DNA of 31,818 bases from a virus. The notes beneath the pieces are model-generated. The model was not told the DNA's origin. It did not search any database and worked only from the letters and a program-made list of their open reading frames with translations. Below, in pieces: positions 1,747-24,194 of the stretch. Made by a program: the position numbers and the translations under genes. Positions within the stretch are counted from its first letter, which is position 1. Every line of letters begins with the position of its first letter. The stretch lies in IMG/VR virus record IMGVR_UViG_3300035698_002048, positions 1 through 31,818 of that record. One strand, 5' to 3'.

Positions 1747-1763
1747 CTAAGGAGAATTGAATT

Positions 1764-1997
1764 ATGGCTAAATTTATTTGTACGGTTAAAAGTGTTTTAA
1801 ATGGTCGGCTTTACAACCAGGGTGAAGAGTTTGTTGGTGACAAATGTCCTAATAAGCATTTCAGGCCTGAGAAAGAAGTTTACGCTAAAGAACCAGAAGC
1901 ACCAAAGGAAGAGGAAACTCTTGCAACGGTAACTGGAAAAGCAACAAGTAACTTCAAGGGTAAAAAGGCCGTTAAGGTACAGAACACCGAAGAGTAA
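1764..1997 (+). CDS. Small head-region protein of unknown function
   Basis: This 77-residue protein starts at ATG with GGAG 8-9 nt upstream. The first 40 residues (ICTVKSVLNGRLYNQGEEF...) look like a compact beta hairpin module, with cysteines at 6 and about 29. The second half is rich in Glu, Lys and Thr and probably disordered. Similar short genes often lie between capsid and adaptor genes in podoviruses, but I cannot name a family. It is the last gene before a hairpin at 2011-2034. Confidence 0.7.
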   Translation: MAKFICTVKSVLNGRLYNQGEEFVGDKCPNKHFRPEKEVYAKEPEAPKEEETLATVTGKATSNFKGKKAVKVQNTEE

Positions 1998-2010
1998 AAA
2001 GTTCCAGGTG

Positions 2011-2040
2011 GGCGGTTTGTTGGTTCAGACCGCCTTCTCT
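2011..2040 (+). terminator. GC-rich hairpin between head and tail genes (possible weak terminator)
   Basis: GGCGGTTTG (2011-2019) pairs with CAGACCGCC (2026-2034), giving a 9-bp stem with one G-U pair and a 6-nt loop. The tail after it is only TTCTCT, so it would be a weak intrinsic terminator or an mRNA processing or stability element. It lies in the 63-nt gap between 1997 and 2061. Confidence 0.55.
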
Positions 2041-2060
2041 GGTAAAATCTGGAGGGCAAT

Positions 2061-2690: not shown

Positions 2691-2691
2691 G

Positions 2692-5271
2692 ATGAAAAAT
2701 CTTTACCCTCCTCAAGTATCTTTCAATGGTGGAGAGATAAGTTCTGCTCTATATGGAAGAACGGATCTTGCTAAGTACAAAAACTCTCTAAAACAAGCTG
2801 AAAATATGTTTATCCATACTTACGGCGGAGCTTCTAACAGGCCCGGGACGAAGTATATTGGTGAAGCTTATAGCAGTACAACTCAGTCCAGGCTTATACC
2901 GTTTACTTATTCAGTAAGTCTTGCGTATGTATTTGAAATTGCACACAAAACAGTTGGTATAGTAGAGAGTACAATTATAAGGGTTATAAAAGAAGACGCT
3001 TTTTTAGAGGTACTTGGTACTCCTATTGAAATAGTTTTAAGTGCTTCACAGCATTTAAGTCTAGCTGATGTATATTATGCTCAGACTGCAAATTTAATGA
3101 TAATAACACACCCCTCTCAAGCTCCAGTTCAAATTACAAGAGATCCGGTTGTTGAAACAACTTGGAGTAGTCCGCCTATAACCTTTGGCTCAGACCTTGC
3201 AGCTCCAACTGCTCCGGTAGTGACTGCTGGTATTCCAGCTCCACCACAAACAGGAAAGGACTATTACTATAAAATAACAAGAGTTGATAGCGATACAGGT
3301 GCAGAAAGTTTACCCTCAGTACAGGCTACATTAAACTGGGGTTATCCATTAGCTGTTGATAACTGGCTAATTTTAACTTGGGTTGCTGATGTGGCCCCAA
3401 CAGATGTAACTGGATATAATGTATATAGAAAAGAAGCAGGGGTATGGGCCTGGACTGGATATGCTGAAAACCCAGGTGTAGGTAACGTAACATTTAATGA
3501 CGACGGTATAGCTGCCGATATGTCAGACACAGCTCCAGTTGCAACAACACCCTTTGCTAGTCCTGAGTTCCCGGCTGTTGTAGGTTTTTACGAGCAGAGA
3601 TCTATATTTGCAACCACACCTTCAGAGATACAGAAGATGTGGCTTTCCGAGACATCTAATTATTTTAATTTCAATACAAGGGTTCCTTTGAACGCTTCGG
3701 ATCCTATGAACTTCACAGTTGCAGCAGACAAGATTAACGAGATTAGGCATTTTGTCTCACTTGGTAGTTTGTTTATGCTTACTTCAGGTGGGGAGTGGCT
3801 TATAACAGCAGAGGGAGTTTTAAGTCCTTCAACTATAAGCATACAACAGCAATCGTACTGGGGTAGCTCTAGCATAAAACCGATAGTAACTGGGTCAACA
3901 ATTCTGTTTGTAGAAAGGGGCGGAGACAAAATAAGAGACTTAACGTTCTCAAGTGAAGCTGGAGGTCTTGTAGGTAGTGAAGTATCTGTAATGACGCCTC
4001 ATTTATTTAGAGGATTTGAGGTAGTAGACTGGACGTTCCAGCAGAAGCCGAACTCAATAGTTTGGATAGTCCGGGACGACGGTATGTTAATAGGTTGTAC
4101 TTATGTAAGAGAGCAGCAAGTTAACGCCTTTCATCATCATACTACACAAGGAGAATATGAAAGCGTTTGCTCTATCCCTACAGGAACAAAAGATGAATTA
4201 TATGTAGTTGTAAATAGAACGACTGGTAGATTTATTGAAAGGTTTATGCCAACGATCTTGGAAGAAGGAGATGTTGAGGACTGTTTCTATGTAGATAGTG
4301 GCTTAACTTTTGATGGTTCCGCAAGAGGCACAGCAGCAGTAGCAACAATTACTTTAGCTTCACTTACAGCCAAAGGATATATTTCAGACTTCAGCCTCGC
4401 TGATGGAGGGTCTGGTTATTCTGTAGGAGATGTTTTAACAGTTGTCCAAACTGGTGCAAGTGGTGGTACTATTACTGTAACAGGAGTTGATGGTGTTACA
4501 GGAGCCGTGACAGGTTTTGGCCTAACAACTGCTGGTATTGATTATGAAATTGAGTCAAACCTTGCAACGACTGTCCTCCCGGCTGGTGGTACTGGTTGTT
4601 TAGTAAGTACAACAGAAGTTGGAACCGCGGTAGTATCTGACCAGAACGTGTTTGGTGCTGGTGATGTTGGGGACAGAATTACAGTAGACGGAGTTGGGAT
4701 AGGACTTATAATTGATTATACAGACGCAAAAAATGTAGATATATTTATAGAAACTACTTTTGAAGCATTAGTTCAAGTCTATGGGGCTTGGTATATAACT
4801 ACCGAGACGATTACAGGTCTAACACACCTTATAGCACAGACAGTCGCGGTATATGCAGACGGGAACGTGTTTCCTACAGATACTGTGTCTGGGGCCGGGA
4901 CTATAACTCTTAGTGGATATACTTCTTATTGCACAGTTGGATTACCGTACAGATCATATATTCAGCTTTTGACATTAGATTTTAGTCAAGTTCTTGACGA
5001 GTTTAGTGTAAATAACAGAAGAGTGAGCAGGGTTGACGCTAAATTAGAAAAGACCAGAGGTATGCTTGCAGGATACGATCTTGACAATTTAATTGCACAG
5101 AAGATAGAATATCTCCAGTACGGTGTAGCTCCAGCTCTTTATAACGGAGACTGGGACTTAGTTATTGAAGGCCAATGGGATAAGGACGGTTCTATAATAA
5201 TAGCTCAGGAAGATCCTATTCCGTTGAATTTAATATCACTTACTCCGGAGGTATCAGTTGCAAAACGTTGA
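2692..5271 (+). CDS. Tail nozzle / tail tubular protein B (gp12-like), 859 residues
   Basis: This protein should form the hexameric nozzle. The N terminus holds the family signature: FNGGEISSALYGRTDLAKYK, then 'NMFIHTYGGASNRPGTKYI' (the Gly-rich plus RPGT element). Residues about 182-280 form a fibronectin-III-like insertion (DYYYKITRVDSDTGAES...). Residues about 542-645 are a Gly/Val/Thr-rich insertion with repeated GYSVGDVLTV-like strands. The C-terminal quarter returns to the family pattern (GLPYRSYIQLLTL onward). I chose ATG 2692, coupled to the preceding stop at 2690. A GTG at 2650 in the same frame would overlap the adaptor by 41 nt and lacks a ribosome site. Its length is near T7 gp12 (about 794) plus insertions. 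Confidence 0.85.
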   Translation: MKNLYPPQVSFNGGEISSALYGRTDLAKYKNSLKQAENMFIHTYGGASNRPGTKYIGEAYSSTTQSRLIPFTYSVSLAYVFEIAHKTVGIVESTIIRVIKEDAFLEVLGTPIEIVLSASQHLSLADVYYAQTANLMIITHPSQAPVQITRDPVVETTWSSPPITFGSDLAAPTAPVVTAGIPAPPQTGKDYYYKITRVDSDTGAESLPSVQATLNWGYPLAVDNWLILTWVADVAPTDVTGYNVYRKEAGVWAWTGYAENPGVGNVTFNDDGIAADMSDTAPVATTPFASPEFPAVVGFYEQRSIFATTPSEIQKMWLSETSNYFNFNTRVPLNASDPMNFTVAADKINEIRHFVSLGSLFMLTSGGEWLITAEGVLSPSTISIQQQSYWGSSSIKPIVTGSTILFVERGGDKIRDLTFSSEAGGLVGSEVSVMTPHLFRGFEVVDWTFQQKPNSIVWIVRDDGMLIGCTYVREQQVNAFHHHTTQGEYESVCSIPTGTKDELYVVVNRTTGRFIERFMPTILEEGDVEDCFYVDSGLTFDGSARGTAAVATITLASLTAKGYISDFSLADGGSGYSVGDVLTVVQTGASGGTITVTGVDGVTGAVTGFGLTTAGIDYEIESNLATTVLPAGGTGCLVSTTEVGTAVVSDQNVFGAGDVGDRITVDGVGIGLIIDYTDAKNVDIFIETTFEALVQVYGAWYITTETITGLTHLIAQTVAVYADGNVFPTDTVSGAGTITLSGYTSYCTVGLPYRSYIQLLTLDFSQVLDEFSVNNRRVSRVDAKLEKTRGMLAGYDLDNLIAQKIEYLQYGVAPALYNGDWDLVIEGQWDKDGSIIIAQEDPIPLNLISLTPEVSVAKR

Positions 5272-5734
5272 GTATAGATTTCCCGAACCTAAAGATATAG
5301 ATTATCTTGCTAAGAATATGAGCGAGATATGTATTCAAGAAGGGTCTGAAGTTAATCAACTTAAAAAAGGCAAAGACATACTGGGTTATTATATGAAGTG
5401 GAACGAACAGGTTATTGCTATAATAGTAGACGGGAATTGTGTAGCTATTATGGGCTACGAAGAACCAAATGCCGAAACTGCTGCGATCTGGCTTGTTACT
5501 TCTAGCAAAATCGCAAAATATCCTTTAATATTATGCAAGACTATAAAAAAGAGTTTGGAGTTTATAAAAGGAATGTATAATTATATTTTTACCTATATGC
5601 CAGACAACACAACTGAAGGCCACAAAAAATGGGCTAAGTTACTAGGGTTTGATATTACAGGCGACGAAGTTATGTTTGGTAAACATAAATACAGAAGAGT
5701 ATATTATACTGGAGGTGCAAGTGATAAAGCTTAG
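5258..5734 (+). CDS. gp13-like GNAT-fold protein, first copy
   Basis: This 158-residue protein has a TTG start supported by GGAGG at 5247-5251, 6 nt away; it overlaps the nozzle gene by 14 nt. The pattern is that of the T7 gp13-position proteins (DUF2833-type, GNAT fold): 'FPEPKDIDYLAKNMSEI' at the N terminus, 'VDGNCVAIMGYEE', 'AAIWLVTSSKIAKYP', and the C-terminal 'HKKWAKLLGFDITGDEVMFG' resembling the last GNAT strand. In T7 the gene at this position is needed for proper internal core assembly. Here it lies directly before gp14-, gp15- and gp16-position genes. No evidence for acetyltransferase catalysis is visible. Confidence 0.75.
   Translation: MQNVEYRFPEPKDIDYLAKNMSEICIQEGSEVNQLKKGKDILGYYMKWNEQVIAIIVDGNCVAIMGYEEPNAETAAIWLVTSSKIAKYPLILCKTIKKSLEFIKGMYNYIFTYMPDNTTEGHKKWAKLLGFDITGDEVMFGKHKYRRVYYTGGASDKA
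5711..5723 (+). promoter_or_regulatory. RBS plus GTG that set the start of the second gp13-like gene
   Basis: GGAGG at 5711-5715 is followed by 5 nt and a GTG at 5721. The frame is open further upstream with an ATG at 5649, but that would lie inside the first gp13-like gene and give an N-terminal extension absent from its paralogue. Confidence 0.75.
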
Positions 5735-6173
5735 ACCTTCCAAATCATCAGATGTAAAACACCTTGCCAAAACAATTAGGACTATATGTTCTGACGAGAT
5801 ATATGCAGTAAACACAGCTTTAACTCCAGAGCTTCTTTTAAAAGCTTCTTTGGATAGTAGTAAAGAAACTTTCAGTATAATTAAAGACGGGAAATGTGTT
5901 GCTATGCTTGGATATAATGAATTACCAGAAAAGACCGCATTAGTCTGGCTTGTTACTTCAGAAGAGATATTGGCTATGCCTATAACTTTAGTTAAAATAT
6001 TAAGGAAATGCTTTTCTTATTTAAAAAAAGAACACAACGAGATTGTAGGGTATATAAAATCCTCAGTAATAAAGTCTATGGGTCGTTGGTATAAGTGGCT
6101 GGGTTTTGAAGTAATAGAAGAAGATGTTGCGATAGGTAATGGGTCATTTGCTAAGATTATCTATAGGGGGTAA
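5721..6173 (+). CDS. gp13-like GNAT-fold protein, second copy (tandem paralogue)
   Basis: This 150-residue protein starts at GTG. It aligns by eye along its length with the gene before it: RPSKSSDVKHLAKTIRTIC matches PEPKDIDYLAKNMSEIC; 'DGKCVAMLGYNE' matches 'DGNCVAIMGYEE'; 'ALVWLVTSEEI' matches 'AAIWLVTSSKI'; 'WYKWLGFEVIEEDVAIGNGSFAKIIY' matches the end. It overlaps the first copy by 14 nt, the same overlap that copy has with the nozzle gene. This points to tandem duplication followed by divergence. Both copies may enter the virion core, or one may have become a specialised chaperone. Function is inferred from position and fold pattern. Confidence 0.75.
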   Translation: MIKLRPSKSSDVKHLAKTIRTICSDEIYAVNTALTPELLLKASLDSSKETFSIIKDGKCVAMLGYNELPEKTALVWLVTSEEILAMPITLVKILRKCFSYLKKEHNEIVGYIKSSVIKSMGRWYKWLGFEVIEEDVAIGNGSFAKIIYRG

Positions 6174-6176: not shown

Positions 6177-6827
6177 ATGTGTTTTTCTTTAATAGCAGCA
6201 GGGGTTGGTATGGCAGTAGGGATTGGCTCCACGGCGGCCGGTATGTACGCAAATTCTCAAGCTCAGAGTGCCGCCGAAGAACAGGCTGCCGCTCAAAAAG
6301 AAGCTAACGACAAGGCTGCAAAGGCCAAAGCAGAGCTATTAACTTACGAAGCTATGCAAGATGATATAAACGCAAAAATGGCCGATCTTCAGAAAATTGA
6401 CACACTTCAAGCTGGACTTGACAAGTCAAATCTAATGGCTGCAAATGCAGGTTTTACTAAATCTATGCAGAAAGTATCAGTAGCAGCTAATGGTTTTATA
6501 ACAACTGACGGAACGGCTGTGGACATTCAGTCAGATACAGATATTAAAAACTCAATAGACACGTTTATAATGAAGTCTAATGTATCAAAACAAGCTTGGG
6601 GGATAGGACTTCAGGCTGATGACTACAGAGCTAAGGCTAGGTATAAGAGACTTGCAGCTCAGAAAGTTCTTGAAGCTGGAGCAGACTTTAATCCTGGACA
6701 ATATGTCGGGTCAAATTGGGCTGCACAGGCTGGAACAGTATTGGGCGGAGCTTCTCAGATGATAAGCCAGGGTTTTAAATACTTCGGCACACCTGCACCA
6801 GCAAGTCCGGTAATTACTAACACATAG
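6177..6827 (+). CDS. Internal virion protein, gp14-like
   Basis: This 216-residue protein starts MCFSLIAAGVGMAVGIG: a short cysteine-containing, Gly/Ala-rich hydrophobic N-terminal segment (about residues 4-25), as in gp14-type ejection proteins. After it comes an Ala/Gln/Lys-rich helix (residues 27-60, coiled-coil-like), and a mid part (AANGFITTDGTAVDIQSDT) seen in many gp14-position proteins. The GGGGG ribosome site overlaps the stop of the previous gene. In T7-type particles gp14 forms the outer-membrane part of the DNA ejection channel. It precedes the gp15- and gp16-position genes. Confidence 0.8.
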   Translation: MCFSLIAAGVGMAVGIGSTAAGMYANSQAQSAAEEQAAAQKEANDKAAKAKAELLTYEAMQDDINAKMADLQKIDTLQAGLDKSNLMAANAGFTKSMQKVSVAANGFITTDGTAVDIQSDTDIKNSIDTFIMKSNVSKQAWGIGLQADDYRAKARYKRLAAQKVLEAGADFNPGQYVGSNWAAQAGTVLGGASQMISQGFKYFGTPAPASPVITNT

Positions 6828-6838: not shown

Positions 6839-8821
6839 ATGCCTAAAGTTCCACTAACGAATTTAACTCAAGATCCAAATGCTGTATCTAATTACAGGGC
6901 TAATCTTTCCGCTCCACCTGAAGCTTTTGGTTCTGAAGAAGCAAAGACTATAGCTATGAACGCAAATGCTCAGGCAGCAGGTAATAATAGAGATATAGCA
7001 AACACAAGAAGTCTTGGTAGTGGTCTTGACAAAATGGCTGCTGTTATTACAAACAGAGCTATAGAATTAAGGATTGAAGCTGACAAAGCTGAAGCTATGG
7101 ACGCGTTGAATAATGCCTCTGCTGAACTATCGGCTTTTTTTTCTAACGAAACTAACACTAAAAAAGGTAAAGACGCCCAGACAGTAGTAAAAGATACTAC
7201 TAACAAGGCCCGTGAGATTTCTGATAATATATATGGAAAGCTTGAGACTAATAGGCAGAAAAAACTATTTAATGAGTCCTGGTCTAGGCATACTTCGGCA
7301 AAGCTTGAGACGGCTTCTTCGTACCAGAGCCAGCAGTTTGAGGCATTTAAAAAACAAGTTGAAATATCAACTATAGAAAATGCTAAAAATATGGTGTCAG
7401 CAGACCCTTACAACTCTACTCTTGCAGCAGACCAATGGGAGAACGTAAAAAACTCAATATTTATAAATAATGTTGGTGGAGACCCTAGTTTAAGTATAGA
7501 AGAAAATGCTAAAAATCAAGGAATTAAAGTAGAAGATTATAAATCAAAATATGGTTACGGCGACGCTGTTATGCAGAAAAAGCTTCTTGACGCCAGAAGT
7601 GGTTTTGAAAGCTCAAGGGTATTAGGCTTTTTAGCAAGGGGTAATCCTTATGCTGCTCAAGAATATTTTGACCAAAACAACAAGTTAATAGAGCCAAAAG
7701 AAAGGGAAGTTTTAAGAACTAAGGTAAGGGAAGAGAAAGTTAAATTTCAGGCCCAGGACATAGTTAGTAATATTATGTCAACTCCTGCTGATTTAGGTCT
7801 TTATACAAAAAAGGTTATGGACGCTACGAAGAAAGATCCTTTTTTAAGAGCTGAAGCTATGTCGTTGCTTACATCACAATGGGGTATTAGGGAAAAGAAC
7901 GAGAAAGATATGGAAAGCCGTTCCGTTAGAGGGTTTGCAGAGGTAGCTTTTAATAATCCTTATGCAAATAAAGATATGATCCCTGAGCTTGTAGGGCCAA
8001 AACAAAAGGCTGCTTTTGAAAACTATTTTATAAAACGAGATACTGACACATTAGAAACAGATTGGGACGTTTATTATTCATTACAAGACGGTATTATAAA
8101 AGGTAAGCTTACGGTTAATGATATTACAATGAATTGTGACAAACTAGATAATGTTAAAAGAAGAGAGCTTGAAAGCCTTGCTAAGAAAGGAGAAGAGGAG
8201 AGAATAAATCGTGTTTCAAAGGTAAGGCCATCATTAGAAACCGAGATTAAAAAAAGCTGGGAATTTTACCGCCACACTAAGTTTAAGAATACTATGTCAG
8301 AAGATAAGAGGGTTGATTACGAAAATTTCAAGGACTCTGTATATCAAAATGATGACCCAGCAAGCAATAAATCAGACGATCAAAGAGTTTCTGAAGCTGC
8401 AAAGGCGTATTTTAGACCTGTAAAAGTCTCGTCGTTAGACAAGGCTAATAGTTTTATGGCAAGATGGAGTCCTATATCTGGCTTTTTACCTAGTTTGTTT
8501 GGCTCTAGTAGTGACATTCCTGACTACGGAACAGGCCTAGCTGTAGGAGAGTCTCATAATATAACCCCTGGCCTGACAGCATTAGAAGAGAGGATAACGA
8601 ATTTTCCTTCTTATAGAACTGTCCGGGACTCTTTTGACTTTAAAAAGCTAGAACAAACTTTTGGCCGGGAAATTACTGAAGCTGAATTTATTAGCCAATA
8701 TTATAAACCGACAATAGATAGGTTAAATAAAGAAGGTAGAAGGACTGACCCGGAACTTGTTACACAGATAATACTTAATACTATGAAAAATAAAATAAAC
8801 AAACTTAAAGGAAACCAATAA
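6839..8821 (+). CDS. Internal virion protein, gp15-like (ejection core)
   Basis: This 660-residue, mostly helical and highly charged protein lacks membrane spans. After about 20 polar residues it has long amphipathic helices (residues 60-190) and then recurring 'ARGNPYAAQEYFDQN' type helix pairs (around 265-300), in the manner of gp15-type core proteins (T7 gp15, 747 residues, forms the periplasmic tube). The start has GGAG 8 nt upstream; its TAA overlaps the next ATG by one base (TAATG), coupling it to the giant protein, which is the usual gp15-gp16 order. Sequence similarity to T7 itself is not obvious; position carries much of the call. Confidence 0.7.
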   Translation: MPKVPLTNLTQDPNAVSNYRANLSAPPEAFGSEEAKTIAMNANAQAAGNNRDIANTRSLGSGLDKMAAVITNRAIELRIEADKAEAMDALNNASAELSAFFSNETNTKKGKDAQTVVKDTTNKAREISDNIYGKLETNRQKKLFNESWSRHTSAKLETASSYQSQQFEAFKKQVEISTIENAKNMVSADPYNSTLAADQWENVKNSIFINNVGGDPSLSIEENAKNQGIKVEDYKSKYGYGDAVMQKKLLDARSGFESSRVLGFLARGNPYAAQEYFDQNNKLIEPKEREVLRTKVREEKVKFQAQDIVSNIMSTPADLGLYTKKVMDATKKDPFLRAEAMSLLTSQWGIREKNEKDMESRSVRGFAEVAFNNPYANKDMIPELVGPKQKAAFENYFIKRDTDTLETDWDVYYSLQDGIIKGKLTVNDITMNCDKLDNVKRRELESLAKKGEEERINRVSKVRPSLETEIKKSWEFYRHTKFKNTMSEDKRVDYENFKDSVYQNDDPASNKSDDQRVSEAAKAYFRPVKVSSLDKANSFMARWSPISGFLPSLFGSSSDIPDYGTGLAVGESHNITPGLTALEERITNFPSYRTVRDSFDFKKLEQTFGREITEAEFISQYYKPTIDRLNKEGRRTDPELVTQIILNTMKNKINKLKGNQ

Positions 8822-11800
8822 TGGAAGACTTAAAAGTTACAACGGCTACAGGCCAAGAACCAGTAGTTAAAACAGAAACTTCATATCAAGAGTCAGGAAA
8901 TCCTTTTGGCGTAACAGAAGAAGCCCAGACAGATAATGACACCGCTGTTAAACCTTTAGTAGAGGACGACGACTATATTGACACTTCTATAGCACCTTTA
9001 AGACAAGATGACGACGACATAGATACTTCTATAGCTCCAACTTATGCAGAGTCCGCCAGGGAGTCTTATGCTGCAACCCGTGGTATTTCCCCAGACCACG
9101 CAGCTAAGGTTGTGAACCTTGCTAATTCTACTGGTGAAACTGAAGCTATTGTAGAAGAGAATATGGTCACAGCAGAAGAGTTAAACAACGAGCCAGACTG
9201 GGATATAGTTGAAAAAGAAAGCCCAGTTCTGTTTAAAGTTATATCAGAAGACGCAAAAAAAATGGCTCTTAGTAAAGATGATATTGATGTTTTAAAAGAC
9301 ACAGAAATAGACATAAGAGACGCTGGGTTTGCGAGTAAGGTGTTTCCTCTTTTAATGTCAGGAACGGCAAATATAGACGCTGGACTTGCAAGGCTTCCGG
9401 GCTTTGCTTGGGACGTGGCTCTTTATCCTCAGAACATATTATATAAGTCTATTGGACACCCTGAGTGGCAAGCAAAAGCTCCTGAAATAATGTATAACAA
9501 CCAAATAACAAGATACTACGAAGAGCAAGCTAGTGCTTGGTCTGCACAAGTAGAAAGAAAAGGAGCAGTTTTAGACCTTATTAAACAAGGCGATTATTCT
9601 GGAGCAGCAGAGGAGGCTCTACTTACAGCCGTAGAAAGCGCACCTTTTATGTTACTTGTTCTATCTATTCCAGTTTACGGTGTAGCTGTTGCTGCCGGAA
9701 CATCTGGTTCTAATGAAATGGCTGTTTCAATGAAAGCCGGAGAAGAGGGAACTGGTACTACAGACTATGCTTCACAAACAGCTAATGCTGCGAACAATGC
9801 GCTGTTTGAGTATATTGGAGAGAGGATTTTCGGAACAATACCAGCTTTTAATAGAATAAAAAAAGCTATGTCTAGTGGAGACTTTAAGATATTCTCTGCA
9901 AAGTTTTTAAAAAAACTAGCCACAGCAATTCCTATGGCTTCTGGAGAAGAAGCGTTAGGAGAAGGTTTTACACAGGCCGGGCAGACTTTAAGTCCTTACT
10001 TGTCTGGAACTAATCCTAAATCTATGGAAACTTTTTCTTCTGATATGGTACAGGCTATGTCGTCAGCTCTTATTATGGGTGGTGGTATGGTTGCCACTTC
10101 TGCTACAATGTCTGGGGTTATAAAACAAGCTCAGTCAAAGAAGGAAACTACCCTTTATGAAAAGGTAGGTAAAGCTGCAAACAAGTCAAAAACAAACGAA
10201 AGGACTCCTGGAGAGTATAAAGAGCTAATACAACAACAACTAGAAACTAACGGAATATCAGAAGTATATATCCCAGTAGAAAAGTTTGACGAATATTTCC
10301 AAAGCATAGGGATTGCTCCTGAAGTAATCATTCAAGATATTGGAGCTATTGAGGGTTATAAGTTTGCAAAAGAAACAAACGGTAACATAAAGATAAATTA
10401 TGCTGATTGGATTTCCAAGATGTCCAAGACTAAACATTATAACGCTTTAAAAAATGATGTTAAGTTTACCCAGGAAGGCTTTACGCCAAACGAAGCAAAG
10501 TACGAATTAGAACAGCAAAGCAAGATAGAGAAAGGATTAAAAGAAGAAGTTGGTTCTTCAAGTAAAAAAATAGTAGAAAACGAAGACGAAAAAATAAACA
10601 GAATAAAAGCTGAGGAATATTACCGTACTGAATTAAATAAAATAGCAAAGCCAGAGAAGATGAAAGATAAAGAATGGAATATCCAAAAAGAAAACTTGGT
10701 TATATCTTCTGCTGCATACGCCGTTAGACAGTCATCAAGACTTAAACAACCTATAGAAAGGTATTTAGAAGGAAAACAAGCTCTTACTTATTCAACAGAA
10801 GGTATGCAAAATATTGCAGACCCAAGTCATAAGGCCGTTACTATTCAAAGGGCCGAAGCTGACATATATAAAATACCAGTACAAGATATAAATATAGACG
10901 CTGAGACGTACCAATTTAAAGAAGGTGGAGACGAGTTTGGTGTATTACCTAAGCTGTCAGATGTTGGTGTGTGGGATCCATACCTGGCAGATTTTGTTAC
11001 TTTATACGAAGATAAGAACGGGAAGCTATGGGTTGTAGATGGACACCAGAGGGTAGGTCTTGCTAAAAAACTTATGGCTGGTGGACATAAACAAATAGAA
11101 GTTAATGCTATTATATTAAGAGAAGTAGACGGTATAACAAGAGAAGACGCTATGATTAAGGCTGCTGAAAAGAATATTGTAAATAATAGTGCAACATTAA
11201 AAGATAGTGCAAAAATATTTAGGCTAACAGGTGGTAAAACAAATTTATCAATACCAAACACGCCTTTAGTTAAACAAGCTAAGTTCATAGCCAAACTTTC
11301 AAAGTTTAGTTATTTTGCTTTTGTAAATGATAAGGTACAGGGTAATTACTCCGCTGTTACAGGAGAACTCGCAGCAGGAAACGAAGAGCTACAAGATGTT
11401 ATTACAGAGGTATTTATAAAGCAAAGTCCTGAAAACGTAGAACAAGCTAAGGCTATGGCCAGAAACATAATTGCAGATGTAAATAACCTTGTAGAAGAAG
11501 ACGGGTTCCAGGGTGCGTTTGATGTATTTGGAGCCAATAACAAAAAGGCTATATTTTTTGAAAGGGGTAAAATACTAACAGACACTATTAAAGATTTAGC
11601 TAAAGACAAAAAGATATTTAATAGTCTTATCAACAACAACGACGACATAACCAGAGTTGGTAATGAATTAAAAAAAGAAACAAATAAAGACGTAGTTAAT
11701 AAAAAGGCTATGGCTATTGATATTCTGGGAATAGAAGCTAACACGGTTGGTAGTGAAATATCTGCAAAACTTAGTGAGTTTGCTAAGGAACTTAAAAAGG

Positions 11801-14800
11801 GTGGGAAAAAGGCCACGATCATAAAGAAGTTTAAAACTTTCTTGTCTAAGAAAATAGAAGAGGGTTATTTTGATAAAGTTATTCTTGGCAAAGGTGAAGA
11901 GGCTTCAATAAAAGAAGAGGCAATACTAAGAACTGAAAGCCTGATTACTACTAAGACTGAAGTTATATCTAAACCAGAGTCAAAAGAAACTATAACCAGA
12001 GAGACGTTTGTAAATAAAGATACCGGAAGACAAACTACAGAAATATATCTTGTAGACGAGAAAGATATACCTCAGCCAGCGGCTAAAGAGTTAAAACAGC
12101 CTATAGACTTGGGTACCGTAACAGTAAACGCTAATGAAGACGTTGCAGACGAAGAAGAGCTATTTCAGTTTGGAGGATACAATGCAGCTCTAACAGCTAA
12201 CAGGGATATGTTCTTTAGAGCTAATGATCTTGAAAACCAAAAGGTTGATAGTGAAACCATAAGACAAGAGACCGGCTGGGTAAGGGGTGCTGATAAAGAA
12301 TGGAGATTTGAGATAAGTGATTTTGAAGCTTATATGAAACTCAGTCCTGAAAAGCTTGAGTCTGTATTGTTAAACAGTAAAAAGCCAGTTGTGTTGTCTG
12401 ATATTTTAGGACACGACAATTTATATGCTGCATACCCGGAGATAGCTAACATTGAAATAGTTGTTAGTCTTAACAAGGGCAACGCTGTATATATGAAAGC
12501 CAAGGACGGGAACCCTGCATACATAGGTTTAAGTTTTGACGCTATAAGAGACGGTGTATTTGACGGGGCGTTGATAGGATTACTTCACGAAATACAACAC
12601 GACATACAAAAGACAGAAGGGTTTGCTCCCGGAGGAAGTTTTGAAAAGGCTAAGGCTTTTGCTCCTGCAACTCTTGAAAAGGATAACGTAACATTTAAAG
12701 GTATTATAGATAATATAAAAAGATTAACAGAAGAGCCAAACGAGAACACTAAATTACTAATTAAAAATGAAATAAAAAAGATCGTGAGGCTCTTCAAAAA
12801 GTACGACTTGAATTATTCAGACTATATATCTGAAGAGATTGTTCAAGGTAAGGTAGATTTAACAAGAGTAAAAGTTGATGATATTTATATGTCCTTTGCT
12901 GGAGAGATAGAAGCTAGGCATACTGCTTCCAGAATGAACCTTACTGAAGAGGAGAGGAGGCAAATCCCCCCTAATTTTAATCCTGAAGATAAGGCTATAG
13001 TTTGGGACGGAGTTGAGTCAGACCTTACTTATGACCTCCTTGGTGGAGATACTATTTATTATCCGGGTTCCAGAACTGAGGAAGGGGTTAATATAGTCGG
13101 TAAGTTTAAAAATAAAGATGTAGCTGTAATAGAAGCTATTGATATACCTAAAGGGATTGAGAACAGAGAGGCTGCAGCTATGAAGGCTGTTAAGAACTTT
13201 GAAGACTGGGCGCAAGGACAAGGAGCGCAAACAGTTGAATTGCAGGACAAGATTGAAGAGAAGCTATTAAGTAGACTTGGATATAAGAACGGTGAGAAGT
13301 ATATATCTTCAAATACATTGTTCCAAAGTGAAACTATCCCTGAATATATGGGATCACACGAAGCCCCAACAAATGACGGCTATAGTAAGTCTCTTAATGA
13401 TATGCAAGACATATATCCTGAAGATATTTATAGTTCTAATGGTGCAAGATATTATGGAGACGGACACCCTTACGATCAGGCGGCTATTAGTATATTTAAT
13501 TCTGTTAGAGGAAAACCAAATGCTCCTGTAAAGATATATAGAGCTGTGCCAAAGGTTTTATCTAATTCTGAAAAAATAAACGAATATGAAAAACAAAAAG
13601 CATATATTCTAAAGACAGGTAAAATACCCAAGAGTGTTACTAATTGGGATAATAAAAGCGAGTATTACGATTTTATATCAAATGAAATAGACAAGTTAAA
13701 AGATCTACCAGAAACAACGGAAGACAAGTTTGGAATAAATGCTGGGGACTGGGTAACAATAAGCAGGGAATATTCTAAAGAACACGGGAAAAGCACACTT
13801 AACGGACAGTATAAAATAATATCAAAAACAGTTAAAGCTAGTGAAGTATTTACTGATGGAAACTCTATACACGAACAGGGTTACGACCCTAATCCTAAAA
13901 CATTATATCAAGACAATGTTACAGAGCAGGGCGTTCCTTTGTTTCAAGGAGCGAAGGTTGATGATTATAAGTTTGGCAATAAGAGAAGGGCGAAGTTTGA
14001 GCCTATTAGGAACCTTATAACCTTCCTAAAGGACGCAAATGCTTCTTCAGGTATTCACGAAACAGGGCATTATTGGCTTGAGGACATATTTGATATTGTT
14101 AATTCCGGGATTGCAACTCCTGAATTTGTTGATGACTGGAATATCGTAAAGGAATATCTTGGGATAAAAGAAGGACAAGAAAAGATAACAAGAGAACAGC
14201 ACGAGAAGTTCGCTAAGTCTGTAGAAGCATATTTCAGAGAAGGTACTGCTCCTAGCTCAAGACTTAAAGAAGTCTTTGAGAACTTCAAAGCTTGGCTACT
14301 TGACCTTTATAAAAGCATAAAGGCTATTGGCCTTGAGAACAATATCTCTGATGATATGAGGGGAGTATTTGACAGGCTTCTTGCAACAGAAGAGGAAATA
14401 AATGCAGCTAAGGGTGATATGCGAGAAACTGACCCAAACATATATGGAGAAGGTGTAGCCTCAAAGATAAGGGAATTGCAGAATAAATCAACAGAAGAGG
14501 CAAAGGTTGATCTTCTTGCAGAGCAAATGAAGGAGTCTACTAAAAAATATAGTCTATTGATTAAGAAAGAAGAGTCCGACGCTAGGGATAGAATAGAAAA
14601 GGACACAGAAAATAACGAAACGTACAGGGCTTCAAAAGAATTATCAGAGGCATTTAATGGCCAGAACGCAAAAGAACTTGCCGATATGTTTATAGCCGGA
14701 ACCTTAACAGAAGAGCAGAAGAACATATTTGATGATATTGCTCTTATAAACGCATACCCTTCTGGAGGTAATTTAGCTCAGGTTATTGCAGACAGTCCTA

Positions 14801-17757
14801 GCTTTGAAGAGTTTGTTGGACAACAACTCCAGGAGTATATGTCTAAATTTGCTCCTATGAAGGACACAAACGCTATTAAAGAAGAAGCTATGAAGTTGGC
14901 TCATAACGAAACATCTTCAGAAGCTATGTTTATTGAGTTATCAGCAATAGAACAACTTAACAAAGGCACAAGGCCAAAGGATATTGCCGGAAGACTTAAA
15001 AGAGACCAGGCTAGAAGGAACGCCAAGTTTGCAAAGATAAAGGCTAAAGAGATACTTGATAATAGTATATTAAAGGACGCAACAGCTTTTTTAGTATTCT
15101 CAAAAGCTGAGATAGAGGCAGCCAAGAAGTTTGAGAAGGCTATGGCCAGGAAAGATTTTAAGTCCGCTATGAGGTGGAAACAAAGCCAGATACTTAATCA
15201 CGCCTTAGTAAGGCAAGCTCTTGAGAACAAAAAAGAAATAGCTGTTACAGAAAGGTACATAAAGAAAATAACAAAAAAGACAGATGACCTTAAAAGGTCT
15301 CCTTATGCCTTTAATAAGCACATAAACAATATTATGGCCAACGTAGGTATGGCCCAGCTACAAGAAGAGAATATTGAAACTATGCAAACTGTGGCTCAGA
15401 ATATGGAAGCGGAGCAATTTGAGTATAACGATATTGCAAATGCTACAGGCCTTGTCAAGACTGAGGGCGGACAGTGGAAGGAGGAGTCTTTAGCTGATTT
15501 TGTAACTAGGCAAAACGATAACTACTCTCTGCTTCAACTACCTAAGAGTGTAATCTTTCAGAAGCAAACACCTTATAAGCAACTTACTGTTAAAGAGTTA
15601 AGAGATGTTAAGAACAGTGTCAAGGCTATAGACAAGCTTGGTAGAAATCTTAATTCCTTTATAAGCAATTATGTTAAGGGCAACATAAAAGAAGCCGGGG
15701 CTGAGTTTAGGAAGCAAGTAGAAGCTAACTGGAAGAGTAGATATGCTGAGAGAAGACAGATAGGTACAAAGAAGGGAAAGGGTAAGTTTAAGAAACTACT
15801 TGAGAGGGTCGGGGATATTCCAGATGTTGTAATAATGCCAGGATTAGTAAACGTGTTAAATATATGCGAAATACTAGATCTATCAGAAAAGGAAGGCCTT
15901 GCTAAAACTTACATTTATAGGCCTTTTGCTGAAGCGGAAGCTTGGAAGATAAACCGCAAATCCAAAGTAGTTAAGGATATGAACGAGATTATAGCTAGGC
16001 ATTTCAAAAATAAATCTTTTGAAGGCCTGGAAAAAACAAGTAAATACTTCCCTGAAATAGAAAGGGAACTAACTAACGACGAAGTGTTGTCTATGATACT
16101 AAACCAGGGGAACCAGACTAATAAGGACAGGCTTCTGGCTGGGTATGGGCTTACACAGGAACAGGTAGACTCAATAATAAATACCGCTCCTAGAAATTAC
16201 TTTGATTTTGCTCAAGACGTTTGGAAATACTATGATACTTTCTGGGGAGAAATAGTAGCTTTGGAAATGAAGGCCGGTGGTTTTGAGCCAGTAAAGGTAC
16301 AACCAACAGAAGTTGTAACTAAATATGGTATTTATGAAGGCGGTTATCACCCTATATCTTATGACATTAGAAAGTCTGTAGAAGCTTACAAAAACGCCGA
16401 AGAGAGGAACGCTCTTTACAAACAATACTCAACTGTCAATTCTATGACAGAACACGGGCATACTACTCCTAGACTTGATTACGTTAAAAGACCTCTTAAC
16501 CTTTCAACAGATGTAATATTTAATCACCTTGAAAATGTTACACACGATCTTGCGTATAGAGCTGCCGTTATTGATGTTAATAGGTTCTTAAATGATGTAA
16601 ATGTTAAGGAAGGAATAATCAATGCTATTGGTAATAGGGGTTATACTACTATATCAAAATGGGTTAAAGCAATAGCAGCAGACCAGAACGAAAACCTAAA
16701 CGGCCTTGACACTGGAATACGTTGGCTAAGATTTAAGTCAACTTATTCAAACCTTGCGTTTAAGACAATAAACTTCCCTCTTGACCTTACAAGTAATGCG
16801 GCTAACGCTATGTGGGAACTTGGGGAAATTGAGTTCGCAAATGCTATAAGAGACTTTATAGGGAACCCTGCTGAACTTATTAGAACAATAAACAGCAAGT
16901 CTCCTCGTATGAAGGAACGTGCAACATATAGAGATAGAGACCTAAACAATATGCGTAATAAGTGGAAGGGTAAAGAAGGCAAGTTAAAAACTTACGCCTT
17001 TGTTACAATGGCTCTATCAGATCAAATTATGTCTTATCCTTCCTGGTGGTTGGTATATAGTAAGAACGCTGGAAAACTTGGAGAAGCTAAAGCTGTAAAT
17101 TTAGCTAACGAAATGGTTACAAAAACATTCTCTTCTGGTTCAATTTTAGATCAGGTGGCTTGGCAAAGGGGTTCCGAGGCTCACAAAATTTGGACTTGGT
17201 GGTACACTTGGTCATCAATGATGTTTAACCGAGTATACCTTAGTGGCAAAATGGCTCAGAGCAATTTACAGAAGGGAGACTATACGAAGACTATAGCAAT
17301 ACTAGCTAGAGCTGCTGTGTATGGCTGGGTTATACAGTCAATAAACGATAACTTCTGGAGAGAGTTTCTTAGAAATAGTGACGACGACGACGAAGAGGCT
17401 AGAGCAACGCGTATTCTTTCAAGGACGCTTACATCTCCTTTACAATATGTCCCCATAGCTAGGGAAGTTGGAGGATATGCAATAAACAAGGCTATTGGTT
17501 CTTATGCTAGAATAGGCCTCCCGGCTCTTTCAACACTAGAGACAGTTTCAAAAACTGCTGGAAACTTTGGAAAGATGATGTTTGACGAAGACTTTGAGAT
17601 GAACCAAAGGTTCGTTGAAGACCTTGCAGCTACTACTTCTATTATGTTTGGGTACTCTAAACAGTTTAATATAGCAGCTTTTAACTTACTTGATGTTATA
17701 AATGATGAAGGAGAATTATCTATAAAAGACTTGTTTACAAGAAAAATAAAAGAATAA
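8821..17757 (+). CDS. Giant injected polyvalent protein (gp16 position): ParB-like, HExxH, GNAT-like, ART-like and membrane-active segments
   Basis: This 2978-residue protein occupies the gp16 ejection-protein position. Domains seen in order: an acidic N terminus with a 14-residue repeat (DDDYIDTSIAPLRQ, 49-76); hydrophobic Gly/Ala segments (about 268-292 and 407-434) that could insert into membrane; a ParB/DdrB-like nuclease domain (about 680-805, VVDGHQR around 738-744); an LPD23-like region with LLHEIQHDIQ (H1256, E1257, H1260) and GEIEAR (1361-1366); a GNAT-like stretch (about 1410-1500); an ADP-ribosyltransferase-like domain (about 1508-1697: YRAVP R1574, GDWVTIS around 1644-1648, IHEQGYDP E1685); a second HExxH (HETGH, 1746-1750); long charged helices (1860-2330); a Trp-rich hydrophobic C-terminal part (about 2640-2900). 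I see no lytic transglycosylase motif of T7 gp16. Domain limits are approximate and all activities are inferred. It may be proteolysed after packaging. Confidence 0.85.
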   Translation: MEDLKVTTATGQEPVVKTETSYQESGNPFGVTEEAQTDNDTAVKPLVEDDDYIDTSIAPLRQDDDDIDTSIAPTYAESARESYAATRGISPDHAAKVVNLANSTGETEAIVEENMVTAEELNNEPDWDIVEKESPVLFKVISEDAKKMALSKDDIDVLKDTEIDIRDAGFASKVFPLLMSGTANIDAGLARLPGFAWDVALYPQNILYKSIGHPEWQAKAPEIMYNNQITRYYEEQASAWSAQVERKGAVLDLIKQGDYSGAAEEALLTAVESAPFMLLVLSIPVYGVAVAAGTSGSNEMAVSMKAGEEGTGTTDYASQTANAANNALFEYIGERIFGTIPAFNRIKKAMSSGDFKIFSAKFLKKLATAIPMASGEEALGEGFTQAGQTLSPYLSGTNPKSMETFSSDMVQAMSSALIMGGGMVATSATMSGVIKQAQSKKETTLYEKVGKAANKSKTNERTPGEYKELIQQQLETNGISEVYIPVEKFDEYFQSIGIAPEVIIQDIGAIEGYKFAKETNGNIKINYADWISKMSKTKHYNALKNDVKFTQEGFTPNEAKYELEQQSKIEKGLKEEVGSSSKKIVENEDEKINRIKAEEYYRTELNKIAKPEKMKDKEWNIQKENLVISSAAYAVRQSSRLKQPIERYLEGKQALTYSTEGMQNIADPSHKAVTIQRAEADIYKIPVQDINIDAETYQFKEGGDEFGVLPKLSDVGVWDPYLADFVTLYEDKNGKLWVVDGHQRVGLAKKLMAGGHKQIEVNAIILREVDGITREDAMIKAAEKNIVNNSATLKDSAKIFRLTGGKTNLSIPNTPLVKQAKFIAKLSKFSYFAFVNDKVQGNYSAVTGELAAGNEELQDVITEVFIKQSPENVEQAKAMARNIIADVNNLVEEDGFQGAFDVFGANNKKAIFFERGKILTDTIKDLAKDKKIFNSLINNNDDITRVGNELKKETNKDVVNKKAMAIDILGIEANTVGSEISAKLSEFAKELKKGGKKATIIKKFKTFLSKKIEEGYFDKVILGKGEEASIKEEAILRTESLITTKTEVISKPESKETITRETFVNKDTGRQTTEIYLVDEKDIPQPAAKELKQPIDLGTVTVNANEDVADEEELFQFGGYNAALTANRDMFFRANDLENQKVDSETIRQETGWVRGADKEWRFEISDFEAYMKLSPEKLESVLLNSKKPVVLSDILGHDNLYAAYPEIANIEIVVSLNKGNAVYMKAKDGNPAYIGLSFDAIRDGVFDGALIGLLHEIQHDIQKTEGFAPGGSFEKAKAFAPATLEKDNVTFKGIIDNIKRLTEEPNENTKLLIKNEIKKIVRLFKKYDLNYSDYISEEIVQGKVDLTRVKVDDIYMSFAGEIEARHTASRMNLTEEERRQIPPNFNPEDKAIVWDGVESDLTYDLLGGDTIYYPGSRTEEGVNIVGKFKNKDVAVIEAIDIPKGIENREAAAMKAVKNFEDWAQGQGAQTVELQDKIEEKLLSRLGYKNGEKYISSNTLFQSETIPEYMGSHEAPTNDGYSKSLNDMQDIYPEDIYSSNGARYYGDGHPYDQAAISIFNSVRGKPNAPVKIYRAVPKVLSNSEKINEYEKQKAYILKTGKIPKSVTNWDNKSEYYDFISNEIDKLKDLPETTEDKFGINAGDWVTISREYSKEHGKSTLNGQYKIISKTVKASEVFTDGNSIHEQGYDPNPKTLYQDNVTEQGVPLFQGAKVDDYKFGNKRRAKFEPIRNLITFLKDANASSGIHETGHYWLEDIFDIVNSGIATPEFVDDWNIVKEYLGIKEGQEKITREQHEKFAKSVEAYFREGTAPSSRLKEVFENFKAWLLDLYKSIKAIGLENNISDDMRGVFDRLLATEEEINAAKGDMRETDPNIYGEGVASKIRELQNKSTEEAKVDLLAEQMKESTKKYSLLIKKEESDARDRIEKDTENNETYRASKELSEAFNGQNAKELADMFIAGTLTEEQKNIFDDIALINAYPSGGNLAQVIADSPSFEEFVGQQLQEYMSKFAPMKDTNAIKEEAMKLAHNETSSEAMFIELSAIEQLNKGTRPKDIAGRLKRDQARRNAKFAKIKAKEILDNSILKDATAFLVFSKAEIEAAKKFEKAMARKDFKSAMRWKQSQILNHALVRQALENKKEIAVTERYIKKITKKTDDLKRSPYAFNKHINNIMANVGMAQLQEENIETMQTVAQNMEAEQFEYNDIANATGLVKTEGGQWKEESLADFVTRQNDNYSLLQLPKSVIFQKQTPYKQLTVKELRDVKNSVKAIDKLGRNLNSFISNYVKGNIKEAGAEFRKQVEANWKSRYAERRQIGTKKGKGKFKKLLERVGDIPDVVIMPGLVNVLNICEILDLSEKEGLAKTYIYRPFAEAEAWKINRKSKVVKDMNEIIARHFKNKSFEGLEKTSKYFPEIERELTNDEVLSMILNQGNQTNKDRLLAGYGLTQEQVDSIINTAPRNYFDFAQDVWKYYDTFWGEIVALEMKAGGFEPVKVQPTEVVTKYGIYEGGYHPISYDIRKSVEAYKNAEERNALYKQYSTVNSMTEHGHTTPRLDYVKRPLNLSTDVIFNHLENVTHDLAYRAAVIDVNRFLNDVNVKEGIINAIGNRGYTTISKWVKAIAADQNENLNGLDTGIRWLRFKSTYSNLAFKTINFPLDLTSNAANAMWELGEIEFANAIRDFIGNPAELIRTINSKSPRMKERATYRDRDLNNMRNKWKGKEGKLKTYAFVTMALSDQIMSYPSWWLVYSKNAGKLGEAKAVNLANEMVTKTFSSGSILDQVAWQRGSEAHKIWTWWYTWSSMMFNRVYLSGKMAQSNLQKGDYTKTIAILARAAVYGWVIQSINDNFWREFLRNSDDDDEEARATRILSRTLTSPLQYVPIAREVGGYAINKAIGSYARIGLPALSTLETVSKTAGNFGKMMFDEDFEMNQRFVEDLAATTSIMFGYSKQFNIAAFNLLDVINDEGELSIKDLFTRKIKE

Positions 17758-21374: not shown

Positions 21375-24194
21375 ATGATTAATCAAAAACAAATTAGTAA
21401 ATTCTCGGTAGCTACGATTGCTGAATTAGAAGCAATAAAAGGTGGCGTAAACCCCAACAACCTTATGTGCTTTTGTGCAGAAAATAAAACTCTTTATATG
21501 TATGTATCTTCTGGCGCTATTTACACAGTAAACCATATTCAAATATGTGCTACTGGCGATAGTGTTTTAGTTCCAAACTCTCGTTGGGTAGGAATAGCAG
21601 GAATAGCTAACTATTTCGGTTTAGCAGCAGGAAACGATACAGAGATACAGATAAATGATACTGGTCTTTTTGGTTCATCACCTAATTTAATATTTAATGC
21701 AACGTCTAGTATGTTCACAACCTCTATTACCAATGGTGGTACTGCTACTACTTATAAATTAATTACAGAAAACAATATGTTAGGTTACGGTATGTACTCT
21801 TCAGGAGCTTTTGCTTCTAAAGGAGTTGACGTTGCTTTCAATGGTATATATGACGCTACTGCTTTCGGTAACTCAAGTCTAACGGCTGGTATTATCAAAA
21901 TGGACGGTACTACTGGACAGTCAGCTCTTGTTACTGTGGACACAGATAGAATTACATTATCAACTGATAAAAATCATTTAGAACTAGAAGAGTCATTAGG
22001 TATAAGGATACGAGCAAATAGTGCTTTAGCTAACAGCTTAAAACTTGGCGATGATAATGATAATGATTTAATGGTTCTTAATAGTGGAGTTTGGAATTAT
22101 AAAGCTTCTGCACCAGGTAGAGCTGTTATGAACATACCTACTGGTGTTTATCCTACAACTCCTGCAGTTGGAGATATAGTTGTAGAAAGTAATTATATGT
22201 ATAGATGGGACGGTCTTTCTTGGTTATCAATAGCTTCTCCTCAAGTTATGCCTACAACTTTTGTAGATAGTACATTTGCTATATATGATGATGGCAATCC
22301 AACAAGAACAATGAATTTTCAAGTTGGAAATATAACAGCAGGACAAACTAGAACAGCTGTAATGCCAGATAGAAACTTTTATATGGACGTTATAACAAAT
22401 AATATTACAGAAACAAGCATACCAACTAATGCCGTAATGTTTGTTGATGATACTTCTGGTAATGTAACAGGTAACGCTAACGAATTAAGTTATTACAACG
22501 GTTCTAAAGTCTTTAAGTATGCAAAAAGTGCTATTGCTGGTACAACAGCAGATAACTTTTTAATATCTAATAGTACAGTTGCTACAAGTGGAGTACAACA
22601 ATTTTCACCTTCATTATCTTTTTATGGAAGTCAATGGAACGGAGTTACTGCTGGTAGTCACGTCAAACGTATACAATCTTTTAGTAATGAAGATGACCAT
22701 TATCTAGGAATTGTTAGTGGTTCTGGCGTTGGTTCAAACTTTGGTTTTGGAGAATTACAAATAAGATCGTATACCAATACAGGTATATATTTCAACGACA
22801 CTTTTGCAGTAGACGGTAATGGTGATATGAGGATTAAGCACGACGCTACAGAAGGGCAGTTTCGTTTTCAATGGTATGACAGTGGTTGGACAGATTTGCT
22901 AACCGTAGATACAGACGGAACAGTAGCAGTACCCGGAACATTATCTACTCTCAACCTTACAATAACAGAAGACCTAACAGTAACAAAAGATATTATGCTA
23001 GGGGAAGCTTTCCAAAGAAAATATAACCAAATCACTTACTGGAGAGCAACTTTTGATACAGATACAGACGGAGATATTAGAGTAGTTCACAACAGCACAA
23101 ATAATGCAATTGAATATTATTTCAGAGACGCCGGTTCTTGGGCTTCTTCTCAAATAACATTAGATGTAGATGGAGCGAACATAACAGTTCTTGGTAACTT
23201 AGGCGGAGCAACTCTAACAACAAGTGGTCAAGCAGAGATAACAGGAACTTTAGAGTCTAAAGGTTTAACAAAACTTTGGCAAGAAGTCAGAACACTTAAC
23301 ACACAATACCATACTTTTTTTCAAGCTATGGGTGGTGTTAGTAATACAGACGCTAGGTTTTATTATGATAGGAATACGGCAGAATTTCAGTTTAGTTATT
23401 ATGATGGTGGTGTTTGGGAAACTCAGACAATAGCTTTAAATCCTAACACTGGTAGAATTACGACAACAAGCACAATAAAATCAACAGGCGGAGATATATG
23501 GGCTGGTTTAGCAGTTCTATCAAGTGGTGGTATGCAAACACTTGCAGACCAAGCTTATTCTTTTAGAGACGCTATAGGTGCAGAAACCGATACTGACGCT
23601 CGTATTGAATATAATTCAACTACTTCTATTATGGGGCTTTCTTATTATAATAGTGGGTGGGTAACTTCTAAAATAAATTTTAATATAGAAGATGGAGATA
23701 TAGATATAGACAGAAATATGACAGCGGGTGGTAAGGTTTTACAAGACGGTATATTCGGAGAGCTATATATCTCAAATGGTTCTACCGCTCAGACAATACC
23801 TACAGGCACTACATATACTAAAATGACTAGTTGGGCTTCAATAGGTCAAAGTAGTAATATGGCACCTTCTGGAGTTAACAGTAAGATCGTTATAACAGAA
23901 GTAGGCAGATATAAAGTAACTGTATTTATGAACGGACAAATTGATACAGCTAATACAGAAATGGAAATGATTGTTTATCTTGGTGGAACTTTACAAAATA
24001 CACTTCATTGTGTAAACGAGTTTGTTTTAAACAATACAAACTACTCAACTTGTATATCTGGAATAATAGATGTTACAGATGTTACTGGAACAAACGGAGA
24101 AGTAGACACAAGGATAAGACACGATGACGGTGGCGATGTAGATTTTACAATGGTTAATGCCAATATGACAATAGAATACTTGGGAAGAACATAG
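21375..24194 (+). CDS. Large repeat-built tail fibre / receptor-binding protein
   Basis: This 939-residue protein starts at ATG after GGAGGG. The N-terminal 80 residues hold an attachment-like module (SVATIAELEAIKGGVNPNNL, then a beta domain ending 'SRWVGIAG'). The middle and C-terminal half contain four degenerate repeats of about 37 residues at roughly 485-521, 567-603, 660-696 and 741-777, each of the form D(I/A)R..(H/Y)(N/D)....(Q/Y)F..YD(S/G)GW....L..D.DG, spaced 80-93 residues apart; they should form a trimeric shaft. The last 140 residues (GELYISNGSTAQTIPTGTTY...) look like a C1q/TNF-like beta-sandwich tip, the likely receptor-binding end. The call is by composition and pattern; no catalytic (depolymerase) motif is evident. 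Confidence 0.75.
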   Translation: MINQKQISKFSVATIAELEAIKGGVNPNNLMCFCAENKTLYMYVSSGAIYTVNHIQICATGDSVLVPNSRWVGIAGIANYFGLAAGNDTEIQINDTGLFGSSPNLIFNATSSMFTTSITNGGTATTYKLITENNMLGYGMYSSGAFASKGVDVAFNGIYDATAFGNSSLTAGIIKMDGTTGQSALVTVDTDRITLSTDKNHLELEESLGIRIRANSALANSLKLGDDNDNDLMVLNSGVWNYKASAPGRAVMNIPTGVYPTTPAVGDIVVESNYMYRWDGLSWLSIASPQVMPTTFVDSTFAIYDDGNPTRTMNFQVGNITAGQTRTAVMPDRNFYMDVITNNITETSIPTNAVMFVDDTSGNVTGNANELSYYNGSKVFKYAKSAIAGTTADNFLISNSTVATSGVQQFSPSLSFYGSQWNGVTAGSHVKRIQSFSNEDDHYLGIVSGSGVGSNFGFGELQIRSYTNTGIYFNDTFAVDGNGDMRIKHDATEGQFRFQWYDSGWTDLLTVDTDGTVAVPGTLSTLNLTITEDLTVTKDIMLGEAFQRKYNQITYWRATFDTDTDGDIRVVHNSTNNAIEYYFRDAGSWASSQITLDVDGANITVLGNLGGATLTTSGQAEITGTLESKGLTKLWQEVRTLNTQYHTFFQAMGGVSNTDARFYYDRNTAEFQFSYYDGGVWETQTIALNPNTGRITTTSTIKSTGGDIWAGLAVLSSGGMQTLADQAYSFRDAIGAETDTDARIEYNSTTSIMGLSYYNSGWVTSKINFNIEDGDIDIDRNMTAGGKVLQDGIFGELYISNGSTAQTIPTGTTYTKMTSWASIGQSSNMAPSGVNSKIVITEVGRYKVTVFMNGQIDTANTEMEMIVYLGGTLQNTLHCVNEFVLNNTNYSTCISGIIDVTDVTGTNGEVDTRIRHDDGGDVDFTMVNANMTIEYLGRT

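Follow-up and report, generated by a model that had tools for sequence, protein, structure and literature searches.

Organization of the giant gene

The 31,818-base IMG/VR virus record IMGVR_UViG_3300035698_002048, analyzed here over its whole length (the window), carries a giant gene at positions 8821–17757 of the plus strand. The gene is a single uninterrupted open reading frame (ORF), with an ATG start and no internal stop. It encodes 2978 residues, as stated in a preliminary description of this DNA, and its start overlaps the stop of the upstream gene by one base. Searches with tblastn and profiles placed the protein in the family of Bbp10 from Bordetella phage BPP-1 (phrog_9880). The identified features are listed in Table 1.

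Relatives of the protein were gathered by scanning viral contigs and phage records, which yielded 252 loci, and hidden Markov models (HMMs) were iterated over the ORFs of these loci. Where the proteins are complete, LPD22, the Nc block, a CLCA_X-type zincin and the C1 and C2 blocks occur in a fixed order, with few exceptions (84 C2-bearing proteins, including that of the window). These elements are referred to below as the chassis, and the variable region between Nc and the zincin as the slot. In 65 complete relatives (a set including a few duplicates, L006 = L197 and L219 = L222), the N-terminal part measures 545±41 residues and the C-terminal part 1248±29 residues; all 65 proteins were gathered by C-terminal similarity, and this favors constancy of the C-terminal part in the sample. 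The slot measures 602±427 residues (range 95–1840), and 99% of the variation in protein length is accounted for by slot length (r2 0.99). Its first 70–90 residues are often common to relatives and probably belong to the chassis.

Comparison of closely related phages revealed exchange confined to the slot. L192 and L194 share 98% identity in each flank (93–95% as DNA), while the slot of L194 contains an extra ART-PolyVal domain, with PBECR5 at the slot end, where L192 has other sequence. Similarly, identity between the giant proteins of two cultured Vibrio phages, 1.021 and PS25B.1, is 97% in the N-terminal part and 96% in the C-terminal part, and their slots (~138 and ~303 residues) do not align. 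The family thus has a constant chassis and one exchangeable slot, recently swapped in relatives. Swapping this one segment of one gene could change what the phage delivers into its host.

A Pfam search over 38 slots identified ART-PolyVal as the commonest named cargo (12/38), together with PBECR1/3/5, MuF_C, GGDEF, RadC, GNAT and LPD1/3/5, domain types that are listed in Iyer et al. 2017 (PMC5512222) among those of polyvalent proteins. The slot of the window (~1160 residues) comprises five segments: a ParB-like core, LPD23, an HExxH metallopeptidase, a GNAT-like stretch and a domain named YRAVP/GDWV after its motifs. By comparison, the slot of Bbp10 (~260 residues) lacks these cargo profiles, and that of phage AF (~405 residues) carries LPD23 and the metallopeptidase, a pair also common to other relatives.

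The giant gene is preceded by a tail tube gene and then by internal-virion-protein-like genes, and a tail fibre gene lies downstream. The ejection-cassette position proposed in the preliminary description was thereby confirmed, the upstream genes being of the T7 gp14 family and lysozyme-like. A corresponding gene order is annotated in Pseudomonas phages AF and PfDIW6, Cobetia phage Carin1, Bordetella phage BPP-1, Caulobacter phage SR18 and others; blastp backs the pairings for the two small neighboring proteins and, weakly, for the lysozyme-like one. The capsid gene (314–1276) matches the GP7 family (PF20911), and gp7 of epsilon15 is ~46% identical to the BPP-1 capsid protein (PMC3863775). The phage is a podovirus of the BPP-1/epsilon15 type, and the giant protein occupies the last of its ejection positions. 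Because this position is combined with a conserved chassis and exchangeable enzyme-like cargo, a delivered effector protein is the best reading: the gene probably encodes a Bbp10-type polyvalent ejection protein, in which a conserved delivery chassis carries one exchangeable cargo slot.

Table 1. Features of the giant gene and its upstream neighbors (all coordinates refer to the window).
Feature	Position	Residues	Strand	Basis
Neighbor: internal virion protein A-like	5649–6173		+	phrog_308
Neighbor: T7 gp14-family ejection protein	6177–6827		+	PF24072; matches Bbp12
Neighbor: ejection protein, structural-lysozyme position	6839–8821		+	phrog_10475 (endolysin-like); weak AF_015 match
Giant ejection-position (Bbp10-like polyvalent) protein, whole gene	8821–17757	2978 in total	+	
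Chassis: LPD22	9058–9339	80–173	+	Pfam PF18834, E 3.5e-14; in 63/65 complete relatives
Chassis: strongly hydrophobic stretch, possible membrane segment	9613–9708	265–296	+	Hydropathy peak
Chassis: Nc block, left border of slot	9976–10518	386–566	+	Iterated HMM, 75 ORFs
Variable cargo slot	10519–13995	567–1725	+	Length and identity comparison across relatives
Cargo: ParB-like core	10879–11796	687–992	+	DGHQR 740–744, N785; AlphaFold2, Foldseek, VIA
Cargo: helix-turn-helix part of ParB-like core	about 11188–11487		+	VIA two-domain match
Cargo: LPD23	12163–12330	1115–1170	+	Pfam PF18838, E 8.1e-14
Cargo: HExxH metallopeptidase	12388–13020	1190–1400	+	HEIQH 1256, GEIEAR 1361
Cargo: GNAT-like stretch	13033–13326	1405–1502	+	No profile support
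Cargo: YRAVP/GDWV domain	13342–13890	1508–1690	+	R1574, T1646, E1685; 84 relatives
Chassis: CLCA_X-type zincin, right border of slot	13996–14409	1726–1863	+	HETGH 1746, E1795, E1802; aligns with Bbp10 CLCA_X seed region
Chassis: C1 block	14470–15702	1884–2294	+	Iterated HMM
Chassis: C2 block	15844–17655	2342–2945	+	Iterated HMM; phrog_9880

Cargo domains of the window slot

The motif VVDGHQR (residues 738–744), from which a ParB-like segment had been proposed, lies in a domain whose DGHQR and N785 are invariant in 83/83 relatives. The ParB family is characterized by GERR-type and ENIQR-type motifs; GHQR and KNI are present in the core, with G, R and N invariant and Q in place of the first arginine of GERR. 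When the AlphaFold2 model of the core (predicted local distance difference test score, pLDDT, 85) was submitted to Foldseek, the best 24 PDB hits were all ParB/Noc/Spo0J proteins (probability about 1). VIA aligned model residues 1–103 with the ParB N-domain (PadC, 6ryk; Z 7.6, root-mean-square deviation (rmsd) 2.7 over 87) and residues 104–203 with a helix-turn-helix (HTH) DNA-binding domain (Noc, 6y93; Z 8.5, rmsd 3.0 over 93). Although such Z values are moderate, the highest-ranking rows are consistent with one another and the match extends over both domains. As modeled, the core has the fold of a ParB N-domain followed by an HTH DNA-binding domain, which goes beyond the original proposal. 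Sequence profile searches of the PDB with the alignments of the ParB-like core, the YRAVP/GDWV domain and the C-terminal part returned nothing useful.

A second podovirus lineage (L013 and SI2) also carries this ParB-like domain in proteins at the ejection position, with the order phrog_376 tail protein, phrog_418 internal virion protein, ParB protein and phrog_684 virion structural protein. This recurrence and the predicted DNA-binding fold would suit an anti-restriction function like that of the phage P1 Dar proteins, in which the core coats incoming DNA against host nucleases. Against this, no methylase or helicase segment was seen, and the matches listed for 39 relatives (25 of 38 families) include no ParB-type Pfam model; this role is best treated as a tentative possibility. 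An improbable further option is that the core is a nucleotide-gated DNA clamp of the ejection apparatus that, after cleavage by the zincin, would load and spread on the entering DNA to protect or pull it. If so, these podoviruses would bring a partition-like clamp of their own into the cell ahead of all gene expression.

In three loci (L051, L078 and L013) the ParB-like domain matches about residues 1013–1337 of the portal profile phrog_21, a hint that some other phages have ParB fused to a portal protein. The second-lineage member SI2 (L005, Dunaliella viridis virus SI2) is listed as an algal virus, yet the genes it carries (phrog_376, 418 and 684) are those of a bacteriophage with a short tail.

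The segment previously described as resembling an ADP-ribosyltransferase (ART) was redefined as the YRAVP/GDWV domain, a discrete family that often occurs alone or in small proteins and also within other giant proteins. The residues named earlier (R1574, T1646, S1648 and E1685) are where they had been placed. R1574 and E1685 are invariant in 84/84 non-gapped relatives and position 1646 is T or S in 82/84 (otherwise A), whereas position 1648 is variable (S/T/N/V/D and more). In a 42-row alignment, Y1509, H1513, R1574, D1643, W1644, H1655 and E1685 are invariant. A possible R-[ST]-E transferase identity can be read from this pattern, and the domain might accordingly be an Alt-like, divergent R-[ST]-E ADP-ribosyltransferase modifying host proteins. 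It is also consistent with this option that ART-PolyVal is so frequent in related slots and that true ART-PolyVal and YRAVP/GDWV domains occur in one polypeptide in L145 and L169.

Structural comparison bore mainly on an inserted helical hairpin and assigned no fold to the domain. With the AlphaFold2 model of the domain (pLDDT 93.5), a Foldseek search of the PDB gave no hit at E <0.001 and listed no ART, the results being filled by the hairpin; VIA covered mainly this hairpin (73–126) and likewise listed no ART. A short mycobacteriophage form of the domain (L011) lacks the hairpin. The fold search recommended in the preliminary description bore out its ParB-like segment. A search of BFVD yielded 14 relatives, in fusions with a wide range of phage proteins, and pointed to no function; NCBIfam and Pfam gave nothing credible, and hhalign of the family against one ART-PolyVal domain gave no match. 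In addition, the Vibrio versions have G at position 1646, and the domain lacks the H-Y-D active site that PMC5512222 gives for the ARTs of polyvalent proteins. An Alt-like activity is considered doubtful. The profile phrog_2579, annotated as ‘ParB C-terminal domain’, best matches the YRAVP/GDWV domain and not the ParB-like core, and its name may mislead.

By eye, two small phage proteins repeat domain pairs of the window protein: a ParB-like motif stretch (L160:2695–3549) and a GNAT-like stretch (L101:2233–3621) are each joined to YRAVP/GDWV, in both cases with no Pfam match. A phage protein of 1848 residues (L162:409–5952) combines InPase, GGDEF, GNAT and YRAVP/GDWV domains. In L120, a YRAVP/GDWV protein gene (2668–3570) is directly followed by an LPD23 and metallopeptidase gene (3573–4949), parts that the window protein combines in a single chain.

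The protease-like segment predicted earlier was borne out, and the protein contains two HExxH motifs, HEIQH at 1256 in the slot and HETGH at 1746 in the chassis. In the slot metallopeptidase, H, E and H are kept in 10/10 and GE in 9/9 non-gapped relatives; in the chassis zincin, HExxH and E1795 are conserved in 88/88 relatives. A combined alignment of the ParB-like and metallopeptidase regions was discarded, since peptidase rows were misplaced. The assignment of both domains as zinc metallopeptidases is supported by these conserved motifs. The chassis zincin resembles CLCA_X, a family whose seed includes residues 700–1000 of Bbp10 (Lenart et al. 2013, PMC3650047), and this seed aligns with the HETGH region; four residues past HExxH, E predominates in the present set (75/88), compared to D in the reported CLCA_X consensus. 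The zincins might alternatively process the cargo away before or during packaging, so that the chassis alone enters the cell and the slot serves assembly. Besides the two motifs, the cleavage of P1 DdrB before packaging, described in PMC5512222, offers a precedent. This is unlikely given the ejection position, and the rapid swapping of toxin-like domains suits host conflict better than assembly.

For the GNAT-like segment, the earlier claim found no Pfam match in the window copy: slice 13081–13440 gave none at E up to 10, the stretch showed no similarity to other GNAT stretches, and its alignment across relatives was uninformative. Its only support is contextual, namely Pfam GNATs located 50–70 residues before the next domain in the giant relatives L123 and L154. 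This degenerate appearance, and the fact that relatives manage with slots of ~95 residues, would be expected if the protein were purely structural and the slot a tolerated filler with inactive domain relics. However, the ParB-like, metallopeptidase and YRAVP motifs are intact in the window copy and invariant across their families, and the exchanged segments are whole domains, leaving the filler explanation with a low probability.

Proposed delivery and comparison with known systems

The preferred reading, an ejection protein with exchangeable cargo, can be put as a sequence of steps. We infer that the giant protein is packaged in the capsid and exits ahead of the DNA, and that its chassis helps to form or anchor a conduit across the envelope. 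The invariant zincin just downstream of the slot, aided by the slot metallopeptidase, would cut the cargo free; the released ParB-like core would bind the phage DNA as it enters, and the role of the YRAVP/GDWV domain would be enzymatic, its target being a host component or a nucleic acid. A conserved protease beside a variable slot fits the proposal of Iyer et al. 2017 (PMC5512222) that proteases release polyvalent domains.

Several points weigh against this reading. No virion proteomics showing the giant protein was found for any family member, and the BPP-1 structure paper identified only two capsid proteins. Autoproteolysis was proposed by Iyer et al. for polyvalent proteins and extends to the Bbp10 family only as a possibility. 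The left border of the slot is approximate, and ART and GNAT activities are unproven. For homology to T7 gp16, whose place the protein had been said to take, no sequence support was found (hhalign probability 2% against a single T7 sequence). The positional part of that claim stands: T7 gp16 likewise follows gp14 and closes the set of ejection genes ahead of those for the fibre. Unlike T7 gp16, the giant protein has no lysozyme-like match; the endolysin-like match is in the upstream gene.

The closest known proteins are Bbp10 and its homologs in AF, SR18, Xanthomonas phage CP2 and Carin1, which agree with the window in their chassis domains, the order of genes and the zincin; identity to such phrog_9880 proteins is 21–34% over the aligned parts. 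The giant proteins of Vibrio phages 1.185 and PS25B.1 share the chassis and carry a YRAMP/GDW domain directly before the zincin, in the same place as in the window, but they differ in that the profiles of the ParB-like core, LPD23 and the second metallopeptidase find no match in them, and in having G in place of T1646.

The assignment as a polyvalent protein was upheld. LPD22, LPD23, HExxH zincins and a predicted ParB fold, unrelated to one another, are joined in one polypeptide, and the gene lies among virion and late genes (capsid, tail tube and gp14-family neighbors). The polyvalent proteins of PMC5512222 are similarly large and multidomain, are encoded near late genes and include LPD domains together with a zincin-like metallopeptidase; a single-slot chassis is not described in its available part, and the match of the window module to ParB/Noc, including the HTH, departs from its account of polyvalent proteins. 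A review of ejection proteins (PMC8954989) reports, in its available part, mosaic domain exchange among them and size variation of gp16, and no cargo slot of this kind. No work on a chassis/slot layout was found in the literature examined on Bbp10, LPD22 or polyvalent ejection proteins.

The polyvalent class and the homology to Bbp10 are thus already known. As far as the literature examined shows, four things are new: a chassis/slot layout whose slot was recently exchanged between phages that are nearly identical, LPD22 in the chassis, a ParB core plus HTH in ejection-position proteins of two lineages, and the YRAVP/GDWV family. The preliminary description mentions neither LPD22 nor the CLCA_X-family zincin (HETGH), the second in the protein, nor the chassis/slot organization.

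If the delivery reading is correct, one gene segment sets what a whole podovirus group injects with its DNA, and natural matched pairs with the same chassis and different cargo would let early-infection effectors be compared with few other changes. In two podovirus lineages, the ejection position would also be one that holds a ParB core complete with the half that binds DNA. The YRAVP/GDWV family defines a widespread, unnamed phage domain whose invariant R, H and E are open to biochemistry.

Other features of the window

Downstream of the fibre genes, positions 21375–24194 encode a 939-residue protein with no credible family match, possibly a tail spike or adhesin, and positions 24626–25051 encode an Amidase_2 endolysin (PF01510, E 4e-17). 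A strand switch accompanied by GC-skew reversal occurs at ~25.5 kb, with 25646–30936 on the minus strand. Candidates recognized there by eye (ERF-like, 29964–30638; RusA-like, 27779–28144; PD-(D/E)XK-like, 28950–29783) would belong to an early/recombination module.
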